Shown here: positions 7,497-35,427 of the stretch, piece after piece
Numbering within the stretch: the first letter of the stretch is position 1
How the letters are laid out: each line of letters starts with the position of its first letter
Assembly (NCBI RefSeq): GCF_014199945.1
Contig: NZ_JACHOR010000001.1
Span: forward strand, 806,001 to 870,000
DNA length: 64,000 nt
Direction of reading: 5' to 3'
DNA from: Brevundimonas variabilis
GTDB lineage: Bacteria > Pseudomonadota > Alphaproteobacteria > Caulobacterales > Caulobacteraceae
The notes under the pieces: model-generated
The model's database searches: none
Seen by the model: the letters and a program-made list of their open reading frames with translations, nothing else
Told to the model about the DNA's origin: nothing
Position numbers and translations under genes: made by a program

Positions 7497-10367
7497 TCAC
7501 GCTGCTTTTGGATACTTCCAGAGTCGCAATCCTATCGTTCGGCCGTCTGAATAAAGTGATCCAAGAGTCTTCAGAAGATCAAGTTTTATATCGGTAAGCA
7601 ACTCTTCAGGGCGTAAGTCCGGCAGATCGGCTTTTAATTTTTCCAACGCCGCCTGAACCGGTTGTGACGCAGTAACGCTGTATGGGGTAAAAGTCACCTT
7701 CTGCCCGTTTTCAACGTCAGTCTGCTTACATGGTATGACACATTTGGTAAGAACCGCGGCAAACTGCCTTGCGGTCAAACCATCAGAGTGTTTACTCAAT
7801 CCCGCCTCAGAGCGATGACGGGCCGCGCAGAGCATTTTACGCAAGAGCTTGATATCTGGGTTTTCCGCATGGACGTAATTAGGGATGCCGTCGCTGGATT
7901 TCAGAGCCACACGCATTGCAAAGTTTATGTAATCCGCCTGTGACATGATGCATCCTCTTAATGGGACCACGTCAGTCGCTGATGCTTTTCCATCATCTTT
8001 TCTCACGTCGCGATAATCATCCAGAACATCTCGAACGATGTTGAACTGTTCCGCCGTTTCCCACGGCACAGTGCTCCACGAAACATGGTGACGATTTCCA
8101 ACTACCTGCGTGCCTATGGCAGCAGGTTGCCGTTTAAAGTCGTACTCCATGCCCAGCCGCCGCGTGATGTCCCGTCGGACAAGATCGTTCTTGTCTAGGA
8201 TTATATCGCGAATGCCAGTTAGCGATTTTATCGTGACCTTGGTTTCGGGGGTTCGATCGAAAAACAGATTAATGATGTAATCGTTCTGTTCCGGGACTGT
8301 CTCACAGTAGACGGGGGCCTTTATACCGGCTTTGGCCAGAACGTAGCTGAAGTTGGGATCATTACTGACAGGTTCGCCAGGCTTCAAAGTAGCCTGTCCT
8401 CGCGTGCGCCAACCCAGCAGCTGGCCAGTTTGGTGCTTACATTCGATGATTTGGTCGGAACCAGCAATTTGCAAGCGCGACTTTCGGAAGGCCGTCGCCA
8501 ACGTCCCTTTCGTTGCAGCGTCAATCTCGGATTGGCTTGCGTTGGACAAGAAACCATCCGTGGTGCAGCTGAAGATTTGGACATGGCGCGGCAGGGCATT
8601 CATGATCTCGGCCAATAGGGCCCGGACATAGCCTGTGACGAAGGCAGCAAAGTAAGCGTTGGTGATTGGACTAGGTCCCAACGGGTCCATAGTCTTGTCA
8701 GCCACGTTGAAAATCCGCCTTTCGCGTAAGCCCTGTGCGAGCTTGCCGTAAAGCGAGTTGACTAGCTCCTTCCAGAACCGGTTTTCTAGGGACTTCGGAG
8801 CGGCTTCGTTCCTGCAGCGGATGGCATCTGTGACGAATGAGCCAAACGGACGGATGGCGTCTGACAACAAGGGGACCGTAGCGCCCTCGATTATGGAAAC
8901 TTTGGCACCTAAACTCATGGCGACAGAAATTTCAGATGCGGCGCAATAGCTACGACCACGTCGCGGGAATATAATCCCTCGGCGCGTTCGGATCGGTAAG
9001 CTTGGGTATCTGACATCGCTAGGAAACTCGAAATCGACCAAAGCCACGCCGAGGGTATCAAAACGGAAGTCAGATAGGTCGGGCCTCAGATTCATGTTGT
9101 CCCAATCAGGATAGCCGATCAGAGACATGGCAGTGGGATAAGCGCTTGATAGATCGAAGTCATTCCAGACCATCGGTAGCCGGAGCGCTTGCGGGGTTGG
9201 TTGGGCGGAGGGTGGGCTGAACCATTGGACAGGTTGGCCCTCGATTGGACCTGGACCGAACCAATACTGCTCGTTTCGCCCCCCATGATAGGCTTCGATT
9301 GCCAAAGACCTACGTAAGTGAACACGTTCCCGATCCACGACGGTCACCCGATCGTAGACTCGCCCAGTTCGATCGTCGAAGACCTTTTCCTTGACTTCCT
9401 CGACGCCGAGCACCTGCAGAGGATCGATTTGCGGATCAGCTTTCCACATCCTTTGGAGGCGTTTGACGCCAATGCCGCTTAGCGTCAGAGGCACTTGTGA
9501 CGACTCAATCGTCTTACGGCAGAGCGTCCGCATTTGTTCATAGTATCGAACGCATATCTCTGCGTCAGCCAGAGCGTACCGTTCGAAAAGGATCGGTTCG
9601 GATTGCAGAAGCAGATCCATCCGAGACTTGATGGCACTCTCCTCTGCCGGCGTGTTGGCCAACCTGATTTTCGGAACGCCTACGAAAGCGCCTAAATCCT
9701 CGAGACGCTTCGCTCCCTCGGCAGTCAAAAGAATGGTGTCACGCACCAACACTTGGAGGTCGATCGGGCCGTCAGCTAGGTCGTAACGCAGCTTGATCGG
9801 CTTCATAGTGACGAACACCCCTCTGATAGCGCTCAAGAAGGGGGTCAGCTGATCGAGGTCCTCAAGAAGAGGCATGTCAGCTCTGCTGAAATGACTAATC
9901 AGTTCCACTCGGCGTGGGACTCTGCCGACGAAGCCCATTTCGACTCCATAGCAGATTGCGAAGCTTATGATTTCGTCTAGGTTAAACCTTTGACTTTCCG
10001 ACGTAGGATAGAAAACCGCACCCCACTCTGCACCGTTGTTAGGGTTTCTGAGGTCGTTTAACTTACAGTACACTTGATATGATACAGGCTTTACCTTGCC
10101 TTTTCCGGCTTTCAGATCATCCTTCGACGCGGGTTCAGTGGGCTGAACATACTCGGTGTCAAACCCAATCGTGATGCAAGAGTCTTCGTCAGGCCCATCA
10201 TTGGATTGACTGACACCTTTCTTGGAGCTTTTACGGAGCTTCGGAGACACAGGATTTAAGTGGTCGCCCGTAAGTTCGATTTGAAATTTCACGAACTCAC
10301 CATCGCTGTTGCGGATGATGACTTCGGACTTCGGGCAGGCGGCAACAATGTATCGGTCTTGGCTCAT
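7497..10367 (-). CDS. Family B DNA polymerase of mobile-element type
   Basis: The 956-residue product has a proofreading exonuclease region: Exo I FDTEY (D70, E72), Exo II-like SHFSRADMPLL (about 158-168) and Exo III YALADAEICVRYY (about 264-276). A YHGG motif (360-363) follows. The polymerase core has motif A DLSSAYP (405-411), motif B KELVNSLYGK (533-542) and motif C CTTDGF (601-606). Together they match the group that includes protein-primed, casposon and pipolin polymerases. Motif C has TTDG in place of DTDS. The ATG at 10367 is chosen because CAGGAG lies 8 bases upstream. No terminal protein gene is visible, so priming could be by an associated Rep or primer-independent. Confidence 0.85.
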   Translation of the reverse strand: MSQDRYIVAACPKSEVIIRNSDGEFVKFQIELTGDHLNPVSPKLRKSSKKGVSQSNDGPDEDSCITIGFDTEYVQPTEPASKDDLKAGKGKVKPVSYQVYCKLNDLRNPNNGAEWGAVFYPTSESQRFNLDEIISFAICYGVEMGFVGRVPRRVELISHFSRADMPLLEDLDQLTPFLSAIRGVFVTMKPIKLRYDLADGPIDLQVLVRDTILLTAEGAKRLEDLGAFVGVPKIRLANTPAEESAIKSRMDLLLQSEPILFERYALADAEICVRYYEQMRTLCRKTIESSQVPLTLSGIGVKRLQRMWKADPQIDPLQVLGVEEVKEKVFDDRTGRVYDRVTVVDRERVHLRRSLAIEAYHGGRNEQYWFGPGPIEGQPVQWFSPPSAQPTPQALRLPMVWNDFDLSSAYPTAMSLIGYPDWDNMNLRPDLSDFRFDTLGVALVDFEFPSDVRYPSLPIRTRRGIIFPRRGRSYCAASEISVAMSLGAKVSIIEGATVPLLSDAIRPFGSFVTDAIRCRNEAAPKSLENRFWKELVNSLYGKLAQGLRERRIFNVADKTMDPLGPSPITNAYFAAFVTGYVRALLAEIMNALPRHVQIFSCTTDGFLSNASQSEIDAATKGTLATAFRKSRLQIAGSDQIIECKHQTGQLLGWRTRGQATLKPGEPVSNDPNFSYVLAKAGIKAPVYCETVPEQNDYIINLFFDRTPETKVTIKSLTGIRDIILDKNDLVRRDITRRLGMEYDFKRQPAAIGTQVVGNRHHVSWSTVPWETAEQFNIVRDVLDDYRDVRKDDGKASATDVVPLRGCIMSQADYINFAMRVALKSSDGIPNYVHAENPDIKLLRKMLCAARHRSEAGLSKHSDGLTARQFAAVLTKCVIPCKQTDVENGQKVTFTPYSVTASQPVQAALEKLKADLPDLRPEELLTDIKLDLLKTLGSLYSDGRTIGLRLWKYPKAA

Positions 10368-31714: not shown

Positions 31715-32185
31715 TCAGCGGAAGACCGTAACCGACGGCGAAGGCGAGTCCGGCAGGGTCCCGAGAGCGGCCTCGATCGAGCGGACTTGCCGGTGTTGGC
31801 TGGCAACCAGGCCCGTCAGGGTCGTGACCAGCACGGCACAGACAACTGTCGCCACGGCGATCATGACCGCCCGCACAAGAGGATCTCGCGGAGGCGGTCT
31901 ATAGCCGAGCCGGCCATCCGCGATTGAGGAAAGAGACTCCGTGGACGGATCCAGGGTCCCCGATACGCCCGCAACCGGGTCTGAGACTCGGGCTTCCGCG
32001 TCAAGGTCTTCGAGGATCGCAAGCGCAGCCTTGCGCCGGTTGACGCCGAGCCGCTGGCAGGCCTCGAGCACATGCTTCTTTACCGTCGGCTCGGACACGC
32101 CGAGTTGCGCTGCGATCTCACGGTCGGTCAGTAGCCGCGTCAGACGCAGGCATTCTTCCTGGCGCGGCGTCAGGGCGGTCGGCAT
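31715..32185 (-). CDS. Membrane-anchored LuxR-type HTH regulator
   Basis: Residues 4-60 form a GerE/LuxR HTH (LTPRQEECLRLTRLLTDREIAAQLGVSEPTVKKHVLEACQRLGVNRR). Unusually it is at the N-terminus, with no receiver or ligand domain. A linker and one membrane helix (104-127, VRAVMIAVATVVCAVLVTTLTGLV) follow, with a short tail outside the cytoplasm. Such tethered regulators can be released or respond to membrane signals. It lies 232 bases downstream of the radical SAM cassette on the same strand. Confidence 0.75.
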   Translation of the reverse strand: MPTALTPRQEECLRLTRLLTDREIAAQLGVSEPTVKKHVLEACQRLGVNRRKAALAILEDLDAEARVSDPVAGVSGTLDPSTESLSSIADGRLGYRPPPRDPLVRAVMIAVATVVCAVLVTTLTGLVASQHRQVRSIEAALGTLPDSPSPSVTVFR

Positions 32186-32417
32186 GCAAAAATCCTACAG
32201 GTACAACGCACAGACTATGATGACGCTTGCCGAACGTCCAGCGGAACCCCGCACAGGTGAGTCAAGCGTGGGTCACATCCTATCCACGGAATGGGATGAG
32301 ATGGGTGCAGCTGCTGCACACCCAATATCCGGTGCTCGCACCACCAGGACAGCATCGCCGGCTATCGAGGCGTGAAGCGGTGATCAAGGCCTTGGGCCGG
32401 CCCGCACGAGGCTCGCT

Positions 32418-33359
32418 CTAGAATCCCGTGATTCCCTCCTGCTTCTTGAGACGCGCCGCCGTTTCCTGAAGCCGTGCACGCGCAAAGTTCGAGGACTTTT
32501 CAAGGATGTCCACGATGTCGGCGTCAGATTTCGAGGGCGAACGAAACCGGCGGAGTGTGCCTGAGAGAACCTCCACAGCGACCCCTTGCAACGCGTTCAG
32601 ATGGTCTTCGGGACTGGCCTGCGCCTTCGATCCCAATGCGCGCTGCAGTTCCTCGGAACCCAGTGCACTCGCCCAGTTCTCGAACACAGCGATGGAACGC
32701 ACCTGGCGCATCTGGTCCTCGATCTCGGAAAGCGGAGCCGAAATGAAGATGGCGTTCTCGGACGCCATGTGCTGGCCATCCGTCCCGAGCACGAAGGTCG
32801 CATCCCCCAGAAATTCCGGCAGTATCAGGTCGGGGTATCGCTGGGAGGCGACGGCCATGATGTCCATGTAGCCGCGCATTTCCTCACCGCCCTGGAAGGT
32901 CTCTGCGCCGAGCCCCAGAGTGAGAGCAGCCAGATGACATTGCGGGTAGGCAACCTCGGCAAGCGACGGGGTGCGCGCAAGGCCGAGTTCGGCGCGCTGA
33001 TACGTGGACAGCAGTCCGGCAAAGGACTCCCGGTAGAGGGCCTTGGCCCAGCCAAAATCCATGCCCATGGACAGAAAGAAGGCGGTCTCGTGGGCCTCGG
33101 GAGCCATGGACGTCAGAAGGATGTGATGTTCCCCGCTGAAGTCGATGTTCATGGCCAGGCATTCGCGGACGACGGCCAGGGTGCGTTCCTGGATCGCGTC
33201 GCGCGCTCCGGGGTAAAGGAGCGCCGGAATCAGGTCGTCAATGACCGCGACGATCTGATGGTCCGAGGAGAGCTTTTCCCAGCCGGACAATGTGCTGGCG
33301 TAATGGCCGAGGTGTCGTGGGCCCGTCATCGGATTATGGGCACTAACCAGAAGAGACAT
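32418..33359 (-). CDS. Tryptophanyl-tRNA synthetase-like protein with degenerate KMSKS loop
   Basis: The 313-aa protein follows the TrpRS plan. MTGPRHLGHYASTLSGWEKL (11-30) carries the HIGH-type motif HLGH. AEVAYPQCHLAALTLG followed by GGEEMRGYMDIMAVASQRY corresponds to the tryptophan and tRNA/ATP site region. GTDGQHMASENAIFIS stands where TrpRS has GTDGxKMSKSxxNxIFLS, and a C-terminal helical part remains. The KMSKS lysines are lost (HMASE), so normal tRNA charging is doubtful. The housekeeping TrpRS is not in the window. The start codon follows the 70-aa peptide stop by 3 bases, so it is part of the radical SAM cassette. Possible roles: binding tryptophan, or adenylating an amino acid for peptide modification. 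Confidence 0.7.
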   Translation of the reverse strand: MSLLVSAHNPMTGPRHLGHYASTLSGWEKLSSDHQIVAVIDDLIPALLYPGARDAIQERTLAVVRECLAMNIDFSGEHHILLTSMAPEAHETAFFLSMGMDFGWAKALYRESFAGLLSTYQRAELGLARTPSLAEVAYPQCHLAALTLGLGAETFQGGEEMRGYMDIMAVASQRYPDLILPEFLGDATFVLGTDGQHMASENAIFISAPLSEIEDQMRQVRSIAVFENWASALGSEELQRALGSKAQASPEDHLNALQGVAVEVLSGTLRRFRSPSKSDADIVDILEKSSNFARARLQETAARLKKQEGITGF

Positions 33360-33362
33360 GGT

Positions 33363-33575
33363 CTAGTTCTCCCGGGCTTGTTTTGGAGGGCCCCCGTAGA
33401 CGATGACGGTCTCATCGACCATGCGGAGTCCCCGCAGCATGCCGACAGTGATCTCCATGGGCCGGTCAAAGATCGGTTTAGGCCGCTGGAAAGGGGGCAC
33501 CTTTGAGATCTGTTCCCAGGTCTGACCCTGATTTCCAAGGTCCTGCCTTGAAGATTTACGAATATACTCGCTCAT
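33363..33575 (-). CDS. 70-aa peptide, candidate RiPP precursor
   Basis: AAAAGGAG lies six bases before the ATG, one of the strongest start signals in the window. The start overlaps the last 20 bases of the radical SAM gene, and the stop is 3 bases before the next start. The peptide is hydrophilic, has no cysteine, one tryptophan (W20), two tyrosines (Y4, Y60) and a proline-rich middle (KVPPFQRPKPIFDRP). Its C-terminal half (ETVIVYGGPPKQAREN) includes a GG. No homologous family is recognised. Position between a radical SAM enzyme and a TrpRS-like protein makes it the likely substrate. Confidence 0.65.
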   Translation of the reverse strand: MSEYIRKSSRQDLGNQGQTWEQISKVPPFQRPKPIFDRPMEITVGMLRGLRMVDETVIVYGGPPKQAREN

Positions 33576-34857
33576 TGACGGCTCCTTTTCTGCTCTGAGT
33601 GATCAAGACGTTGCCATAATACTCGTGCTCTGAAGCCTGCTGACGAAGCGCATTCAGAGTGGTCGATTCGTTCCAGATACGGTCGATCGAAGACTCGAGG
33701 ACATTTCCAACATTCACCTCTTCACCGAGCATTTCCTTGGCCTGAATGCCGGCATAGGCCTGGCCATGAGGGGTGATCCTGAGGATGCGATCGGGGCTGC
33801 GGATCAGCCACGGCTGACTTCGCCAGAGCGTCTCACGGGCAGCCGGGCTGGCGCTTTCAGCGATGGCCCGCCATCCCGGGTCCGCCGGTCGGACGAGCCC
33901 GTCCGACACGGCCCGGGCGAACTGTTCGTAGGCTTCCGCAAGATCAGCGTTGGACGGGATGAGCGCTTCAAGCATTCGGCCTCGCCCCGCGCTGTAGAGG
34001 GGCGAGACGCAGTAGCTTACGTCGAAGGGCTGCAAGGCGAGGGCGGTCTCATAGATTCTCGACTTGTTCACAGACGTGAGGACCGTCCCGACCATCACGG
34101 GGACGCCCGATTGCCTCAGCCGTCGAATACCCGAAACCACACAGCGAAAACTGCCATGGCCTCGCTGCATATCGGCTGTTTCAGGGTCCGGGCCGTCCAG
34201 GGTCGTTTGCAGAAAGGTCAGGTTGGGCAGGGCTGCAAGGCCCGTGATCTGGGCATCGGTAATCAGACTGAGGTCGGATGCGACGGCAACCGAGAACCCC
34301 ATGTCACTGGCGAGGGTGATGATCTCGAGGGCATCTGCACGCAGAAGAGGATCGCCGCCCGTGAATCGAAGATAGAAGACACCTGCGGCTCTCGCCGCTC
34401 GAAACGCATCCTCGTATTGGGCCAGGGCCAGTTCGCCCCTGGGGCTCACACCGGGGTGAGAGTCATAGGCGCAGTAGGTGCAGACCCTTCGACATCGAAG
34501 CGTGAGCTCGAACTCGATGGCCAGCGGCGCAACCAGATGCGAGCGGTGAAATCTTGTGCGGTCTGTATAGAATTGCTGGGCTGCAGGATGGGGAGCATTT
34601 CCCTCAACAAACATCCGACTCGCCACGGCACCTTCGACGAAGGTTCTGAGGGCCATGGAATCCTGAAACTGACCCGAAAGCCTTGTGATGGCGACATCCG
34701 GCCGGGTGGGCGAGAACAGGGCTTCGATACAGGTGGCCGCAGCGTGATCGAAGAAGCGCACGCTATGATCACTTGCGCAAAAGACCGAGGCGCCGAACGC
34801 TTCTCGCCGATAGCTGAAGTCCTCGGAGAGCACGAACGGCCCATCGTTCTCTGACAT
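33556..34857 (-). CDS. Radical SAM peptide-modifying enzyme candidate with RRE-like N-terminus
   Basis: The 433-aa product has the [4Fe-4S] motif CRRVCTYC (C122, C126, C129), GGDP (167-170) and a TIM-barrel-like core (VAVASDLSLIT, FLQTTLDGPD). Residues about 8-48 (FVLSEDFSYRREAFGASVFC ... HAAATCIEAL) resemble PqqD-type RRE leader-binding domains. The C-terminal region has the GNVLESSIDRIWNES pattern typical of SPASM-containing enzymes but lacks the cysteine cluster. It is the first gene of a compact three-gene unit and probably acts on the overlapping 70-aa peptide. Confidence 0.75.
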   Translation of the reverse strand: MSENDGPFVLSEDFSYRREAFGASVFCASDHSVRFFDHAAATCIEALFSPTRPDVAITRLSGQFQDSMALRTFVEGAVASRMFVEGNAPHPAAQQFYTDRTRFHRSHLVAPLAIEFELTLRCRRVCTYCAYDSHPGVSPRGELALAQYEDAFRAARAAGVFYLRFTGGDPLLRADALEIITLASDMGFSVAVASDLSLITDAQITGLAALPNLTFLQTTLDGPDPETADMQRGHGSFRCVVSGIRRLRQSGVPVMVGTVLTSVNKSRIYETALALQPFDVSYCVSPLYSAGRGRMLEALIPSNADLAEAYEQFARAVSDGLVRPADPGWRAIAESASPAARETLWRSQPWLIRSPDRILRITPHGQAYAGIQAKEMLGEEVNVGNVLESSIDRIWNESTTLNALRQQASEHEYYGNVLITQSRKGAVNERVYS

Positions 34858-35351
34858 TGGCGCTCACCCATAAGATAAATGACGCTTGCTGACTTCGCGA
34901 ACAACCTGAACGTGCTTACCCTGACAGTCTCCAAGCCAAATGCAAGCCGGAAAATACAATCCAGGGCTTAGAGCTCTGAAGCTGCGCCCTGATCCAATGT
35001 CCCCGGAAAGGCCCCCCACACGTGAACCAACCTCCGTCCAGGGGCACTGGAGATCAATTCTAGGTTGGGTAAAGCCGACCGCTATGGCAAGCCGAACGGC
35101 TGGGCGTTGGCATCGGGCTTCATCCGCATGCTGTGCGCTTCGCACGCGAGGCGAGCGCCATGAGGGGATCGACGCGGTTCTGAACGTTTCGGTCGCGGGT
35201 CTCACAGCTTCGCCGCACTGCTGATCGCGGCGGCCGTCAAGGCGGCCGGAGGTTTTCACTTCCCTGCCGCCGGCTGCACATCGCGGGATCCGCGCGCGTG
35301 AACACGCCCGGGCCTCAGCCTGTTCGTGACCCGTTACCGATGGAACCGAAG
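34858..35351. other. Non-coding region between the radical SAM cassette and tRNA-Thr
   Basis: The 131-codon minus-strand ORF here has no plausible start signal and an unlikely composition. The part next to the radical SAM gene (34858-34960) is less GC-rich and probably holds its promoter. No clear operator is seen. Confidence 0.45.
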
Positions 35352-35427
35352 TGGTGCCGCTTAGGTGACTCGAACACCTGACCCCCGCATTACGAATGCG
35401 ATGCTCTACCGGCTGAGCTAAAGCGGC
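35352..35427 (-). tRNA. tRNA-Thr (anticodon CGU)
   Basis: On the minus strand the acceptor GCCGCTT pairs with AAGCGGC, the D-arm is TAGCTCAGCCGGTAGAGCA, the anticodon loop is TTCGTAA (anticodon CGU, threonine) and the T-arm is AGGTGTTCGAGTCACCT. CCA is encoded. The structure is complete. Confidence 0.95.

Follow-up and report, generated by a model that had tools for sequence, protein, structure and literature searches.

What does a relative of tryptophanyl-tRNA synthetase (TrpRS) do in a gene unit that otherwise encodes a radical SAM enzyme and a 70-residue peptide? This question is raised by a locus of Brevundimonas variabilis that lies in a stretch of 64,000 nucleotides (contig NZ_JACHOR010000001.1, positions 806,001 to 870,000), hereafter called the window, to whose numbering coordinates refer unless another record is named. 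As the original prediction from the sequence had it, the three genes overlap or abut on one strand, in a tight minus-strand unit. The radical SAM gene (33556-34857, 433 amino acids) is followed by the open reading frame (ORF) of a candidate precursor or carrier peptide (33363-33575, 70 amino acids, 8.1 kDa, pI 9.7) and by the TrpRS-like gene (32418-33359, 313 amino acids). The start of the peptide ORF overlaps the 3' end of the radical SAM gene by 20 nt, and the TrpRS-like gene begins three bases past the end of the peptide ORF. Both enzyme frames are intact in the ORF reading of the window, and GGTGAG, AGGAG and GGGAG stand ahead of the three starts. The unit of radical SAM enzyme, peptide and TrpRS paralogue is thus real. 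Its function is a matter of argument, and our preferred reading, to which we assign a probability of about 0.38, is that an acquired, co-translated three-gene islet yields either a modified peptide or an amino-acid product carried by a peptide.

Could the TrpRS-like gene simply serve translation? The genome encodes an ordinary trpS elsewhere, which matches the trpS model with 301 bits, above the curated cut-off of 176.75; the TrpRS-like protein scores 27.7 bits and is about 20% identical to the genome's own TrpRS. It is therefore not the organism's only TrpRS; the opposite finding had been named beforehand as one that would speak against the prediction. A third class I gene of the genome we read, from its sequence, as tyrosyl-tRNA synthetase. 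The AlphaFold model of the TrpRS-like protein (pLDDT 75.5, pTM 0.75) was computed from an alignment with eight ordinary TrpRSs of viral contigs, an input that favours a TrpRS fold. By Foldseek it matches 7elt with an E-value of 8.3e-13, TrpRS structures heading the PDB lists, and it aligns with 1i6k over 293 of 313 residues (Z 26.3, root-mean-square deviation 3.1). The modelled protein thus appears to retain the TrpRS fold, a Rossmann domain with C-terminal helices. Relative to the genome's own TrpRS it lacks 6 residues that directly follow KMSKS and 17 that precede the C-terminal helices, so that its description as full-length holds for the fold but not for these two stretches.

The catalytic signatures have fared unevenly. 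The HIGH motif is intact as HLGH (residues 16-19). KMSKS has become HMASE, as had been predicted, when the register is anchored on the DGQ that precedes the motif; MAFFT places it one residue off this anchor. An alignment of 13 ordinary TrpRSs has 49 invariant residues, of which the protein keeps 21 and replaces 28, an alignment-dependent count whose total is the same in either register. As a control, each of the 13 was omitted in turn, and every one keeps 49 of the 49-52 invariants then defined. The retained residues include HLGH, the YP motif, Asp42 and Gly158. The KMSKS lysines are lost, as are the Asp of AAD (now AAL), the Asp and Gln of GEDQ (now GEEM) and, ahead of these, a conserved Lys and a conserved Arg. 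We take the invariant Asp of AAD to bind the indole nitrogen in tryptophan recognition. Because this Asp and other invariant residues are replaced, the suggestion that the protein could activate or bind tryptophan is unlikely to apply in the ordinary way. The lost invariants and absent stretches make the protein look remodelled, not merely duplicated; an ordinary duplicate of trpS was rejected on the 27.7 bits against 176.75 and on the 21 of 49 invariants. It is possible that the protein acts without tRNA.

The same losses bear on whether the TrpRS relative protects the cell against a TrpRS-targeting product of the other two genes. Extra aminoacyl-tRNA synthetase copies confer self-resistance in natural-product clusters, and SbzA is described as such a self-resistance protein in the account given by PMC12945691; the locus, too, is a small acquired unit. 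A protective copy is at odds with the loss of the KMSKS lysines, the AAD Asp, the GEDQ residues and the conserved Lys and Arg, and with a trpS score so far under the cut-off, and we rate self-protection as the least probable of the explanations considered here.

Is the 70-residue peptide a gene at all? Its start carries AAAAGGAGCCGTCA-ATG, with the AGGAG site inside the 3' end of the radical SAM gene. This ribosome binding site is the strongest of the three, with an anti-Shine-Dalgarno energy of -9.4 kcal/mol, which was matched or beaten at 5.6% of 3000 random positions; the site had been called very strong and is indeed good, but it is unexceptional. The 196-nt gap between the enzymes is spanned by an open frame in 4682 of 20000 Markov sequences, so the case for the peptide rests on codon bias, the ribosome site and the exact fit between the genes. 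Trained on both enzymes, the codon score of the gap is -0.018 bits per codon in the peptide frame, against -0.493 and -0.389 in the remaining frames. Trained on the TrpRS-like gene and tested on the radical SAM gene, the gap scores -0.126 against an off-frame maximum of -0.266; with training and test genes exchanged, it scores -0.002 against -0.118. True-frame windows of the enzymes score from -0.163 upward in this cross-test. One frame of the non-genic flank at 34900-35340 scores -0.001, as well as the peptide frame, so that the codon bias is support and not proof. Homologues of the peptide are listed in none of Pfam, NCBIfam, PHROGs and PADLOC; the genome holds the single copy within the unit; the best PDB match (a sialidase, E 0.24) we take as chance; and the plasmid search gave a sole match at E 10. 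On its sequence features, then, the 70-residue peptide is plausible but unproven as a real gene.

These observations bring in the chief alternative, in which the radical SAM enzyme acts on a small molecule or nucleotide, the peptide is accessory or spurious, and the TrpRS relative is an SbzA-like acyl or amino-acid transferase for small molecules. A peptide that lacks homologues, a gap frame that opens so often in Markov sequences and a flank frame that scores as well are what it would lead one to expect. It leaves unexplained why the codon score of the peptide frame exceeds the off-frame windows of both enzymes, and why an AGGAG site and an exactly fitting ORF lie between the two genes. We hold it to be a possible but rather doubtful account of the locus.

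The radical SAM protein itself speaks in part for that alternative. It matches PF04055 with 67.9 bits and the SPASM model of Pfam with 17.7 bits, under the cut-off of 21.5. The CxxxCxxC cluster motif is present as CRRVCTYC (C122, C126, C129), and GGDPL stands for GGEP. The protein's cysteines lie at positions 27, 43, 122, 126, 129, 239 and 283 only, leaving none in the SPASM-like tail. The sole full-length relative found, 34% identical and encoded on two Thermus thermophilus plasmids, has the three core cysteines only, its SPASM region being likewise free of cysteine. The comparison counted one PqqE, one MftC and 11 further radical SAM proteins picked from the available loci, leaving out others that had been fetched; all 13 have 4 to 10 cysteines in this region. 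From the sequence we infer a single-cluster radical SAM enzyme that probably lacks auxiliary clusters. Its best NCBIfam scores are 96 bits for WgkB and 89.4 bits for MftC, with cut-offs of 650 and 265 bits. The two best matches among solved structures are chains of cytosylglucuronate decarboxylase, which, like the missing SPASM cysteines, would suit an enzyme acting on a small molecule. A Viperin-type antiviral enzyme was rejected: the PADLOC pVip match (41.3 bits) spans only the radical SAM core, as do the matches of many radical SAM families.

Does the N-terminus of this enzyme bind the peptide? The domain (residues 1-105 of the 433) is common to the Thermus relative, and an RRE-like nature had been proposed for it, which we were unable to confirm. 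Neither Pfam nor NCBIfam finds an RRE there, a profile of the two N-termini has no match in the PDB, and hhalign against a two-member PqqD/MftB profile gives a probability of 1.2, two-sequence profiles being uninformative. Against a PqqD profile of our own, built from 25 of 32 PqqD matches, the protein scores 4.3 bits, a value reached by 1 of 500 shuffles, and the Thermus relative -0.8 bits, reached by 129 of 500. The AlphaFold model of the whole protein (mean pLDDT 56.9) is too weak for a structure search, residues 1-110 lying below 50. The single PqqD-type match of the genome lies on a different contig (C3:196474-196671).

We then ask whether the trio recurs, in samples of genus, family, order, class and phylum that overlap and all lie within one phylum. 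For the TrpRS-like protein, 22 of 398 genomes of the order sample match at E 1e-3, with 7.2e-207 for the own gene and 2.0e-5 for the runner-up; in the phylum sample 10 of 398 match at 1e-6, the next best at 4.6e-8 over residues 10-108. KMSKS is present in all 12 non-own TrpRS-type loci that were aligned (12 of the 30 order and phylum loci, the other 18 being left out). For the radical SAM protein, 159 of 199 genomes of the family sample match at 1e-3 and 7 of 385 of the class sample at 1e-15, the next best matches (5.2e-14 and 9.5e-19) covering the core only; at 1e-20 in the genus sample (1/131) and 1e-18 in the phylum sample (1/398) the own gene is the sole match. Close-pattern scans of genome contigs for both enzymes, which find close relatives only, yielded 14 and 34 pattern matches, none of them confirmed. 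An orthologue of either enzyme, or a second copy of the trio, was thus not found in the genomes searched, and the expectation that the peptide would be conserved beside the radical SAM gene in relatives could not be borne out there.

Among plasmids, the TrpRS-like protein has no match at 1e-5, and in 2 of 243 records with a radical SAM match the aligned part spans 80% or more of the query. The Thermus radical SAM gene overlaps a gene for an MFS transporter (L026, 6851-9515) and has no evident peptide beside it, an arrangement that again fits action on a small molecule; this plasmid locus is a second, uncharacterised setting of the radical SAM subfamily. A phage origin was rejected for both enzymes. 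For the TrpRS-like protein, phage records yield no match at E 0.01 and viral contigs none that was confirmed; the radical SAM protein matches 6 phage records, none of which covers 80% of the query, with none confirmed in two viral scans. A third viral scan, based on a broad alignment of radical SAM proteins, returned 8 loci, of which most match the core only. Very large viral contigs (L086-L091, IMG/VR, 415-608 kb) encode an ordinary-looking TrpRS with KMSKS and AAD intact.

Are the three genes then an imported fragment, decaying or assembled by chance, whose members no longer cooperate? The confinement of the radical SAM gene to one of the 131 genus genomes, its own, and the lack of orthologues of either enzyme in the other samples would be expected of such a fragment. 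Three intact frames, coding-like codon use, overlap or near-contact of the genes and the ribosome sites argue the other way, and we regard decay or chance as clearly unlikely.

The surroundings suggest how the unit arrived. It lies within an islet of roughly 3 kb (32167-35351, no strand assigned) that extends from a luxR-type regulator gene to tRNA-Thr and has no nucleotide match in the regions of 20 relatives. The regulator gene (31715-32185, minus strand) is the syntenic left border, outside the islet; on the other side the islet adjoins tRNA-Thr (CGT; 35352-35427, minus strand). The 20 regions, all of the same genus, were taken from hemC onward. In 19 of them tRNA-Thr stands beside hemD, the remaining one being a truncated contig. 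Four (L064, L066, L071, L073) have the order hemC-hemD-tRNA-Thr-luxR-membrane protein-metK without the islet, tRNA-Thr and luxR being 88-145 bp apart, as against 3166 bp, holding the trio, in the window. Nucleotide homology to these four ends at 32164-32169 and 35342-35352, with no match within 32200-35340. Among the remaining 16, luxR is reversed in six and missing in one, where tRNA-Thr adjoins metK; two carry a long insert ahead of metK, for six no metK is seen in the stretch, and one is truncated; the trio has no match in them at E 1e-3. The G+C content is 0.54-0.65 in islet windows and 0.63-0.73 in neighbouring ones. From this lower G+C content and from the absence in relatives we infer that the islet was acquired horizontally.

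No partial copy of tRNA-Thr of at least 9 nt was found in 32100-32420. A 14-nt near-repeat (32220-32233 and 34879-34892, 93% identical) flanks the three genes and may be chance. In the genus, tRNA-Thr looks like an insertion hotspot: L080 has about 8 kb between tRNA-Thr (1672-1747) and metK, with a second, partial copy near the far end (9208-9255; bases 29-76, 98% identical), and L083 has about 7 kb between tRNA-Thr (1682-1757) and metK, with no partial copy seen.

Insertion next to a tRNA gene is circumstantial support for one further explanation, that the TrpRS relative and the radical SAM enzyme jointly act on tRNA, for instance in modifying a base by an activated amino acid, the small protein being a subunit. 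GluQ-RS attaches an activated amino acid to a tRNA base, and the synthetase fold with its helical C-terminal part is kept here. We give this a poor chance: residues before the C-terminal helices are absent, KMSKS is lost, and the radical SAM protein's top two NCBIfam models describe peptide maturases, albeit with scores far under cut-off.

How might the unit work? In the reading that we prefer, the 70-residue peptide would be made by the ribosome and serve as substrate or carrier. The TrpRS derivative would no longer charge tRNA-Trp; it would use the HIGH site that it retains to transfer an amino acid to the peptide or to a small molecule, or to activate one for it, drawing on aminoacyl-tRNA or on ATP. 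The radical SAM enzyme, with its single cluster, would then modify the added residue or the peptide. The peptide's part as substrate, the transfer itself and the sequence of events are presumed. We favour this reading because the genes overlap or abut with frame-specific codon bias and both enzyme frames are intact, and because the TrpRS-like protein keeps the fold and HLGH with its amino-acid site and KMSKS replaced in a cell that has a housekeeping TrpRS. The version in which the TrpRS paralogue attaches or activates an amino acid on the 70-residue carrier through HIGH, and a radical SAM enzyme that lacks auxiliary clusters then modifies it, is unlikely to be right in all its parts.

Several points weigh against a peptide-modifying unit. 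With both KMSKS lysines gone, adenylation itself may be dead. An RRE was demonstrated by neither Pfam, NCBIfam, hhalign, the PDB profile search, the PqqD profile nor AlphaFold. No conserved peptide family was found, so that no core can be named, and the neighbourhood of the Thermus radical SAM gene has no recognisable peptide or TrpRS-like gene. Neither a transporter gene nor a protease gene was recognised within the islet, whose other ORFs were left unsearched against families. The lack of any further copy of the trio in the genomes searched limits confidence.

How does the unit compare with known systems? With the radical SAM/SPASM maturases PqqE, MftC and WgkB it shares the CxxxCxxC core, a SPASM-like C-terminal region and an adjacent small peptide gene. 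Unlike these, the enzyme described here scores far under the family cut-offs and has no cysteine in the SPASM region; a separate PqqD or MftB is lacking and a TrpRS relative is added. A housekeeping bacterial TrpRS resembles the TrpRS-like protein in fold over its whole length, as the superposition on 1i6k indicates, but differs from it in sequence (identity about 20% for the own TrpRS) and in most of the invariant residues.

A further system for comparison is SbzA. As described in PMC12945691, this class I IleRS-like protein keeps HYGH, has AMSKA for KMSKS, and moves isoleucine from Ile-tRNA to a metabolite in the SB-203208 pathway, still using aminoacyl-tRNA despite its altered KMSKS. It resembles our protein in its class I synthetase fold, kept HIGH and altered KMSKS, a parallel of motifs only. 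SbzA is described as having canonical IleRS architecture and weak charging, whereas our protein has most of its amino-acid pocket replaced and is encoded beside a peptide gene. Cyclodipeptide synthases, according to references listed in PMC5816076, likewise have a class I synthetase-derived fold turned to peptide chemistry; unlike them, the TrpRS-like protein keeps HIGH and nearly the full TrpRS length. It has no match to the cyclodipeptide synthase family, PF00579 being its sole Pfam listing at E up to 1, and no such synthase is prominent in the fold lists, which hold one weak viral fold match (E 0.79). Synthetase relatives outside translation, SbzA and cyclodipeptide synthases, have each revealed other amide-bond chemistry.

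Pearlin pathways (ammosamide, 3-thiaglutamate) are alike by analogy: a short ribosomal peptide, possible amino-acid addition, then tailoring. PEARLs are described as LanB-like (PMC12945691) and as adding tryptophan and other residues to a scaffold peptide that is then modified (PMC12945691, PMC11117183). Unlike in these pathways, Pfam (E up to 1) lists no LanB-like domain in the trio. It is by joining the SbzA and PEARL precedents that we arrive at the peptide-carried pathway, a model suggested by gene anatomy. The components are members of known superfamilies. The TrpRS paralogue had been called a non-standard partner, and the open-access literature searched, outside which most subscription journals lie, yielded no paper on such a system. 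A TrpRS paralogue locked into a unit with a radical SAM enzyme and a peptide would link synthetase evolution to the modification of ribosomal peptides. If the version in which the paralogue attaches or activates an amino acid on the carrier peptide is true, the unit would represent a new class of pathway, in which a class I synthetase takes the role that LanB-like PEARLs play in pearlin pathways.

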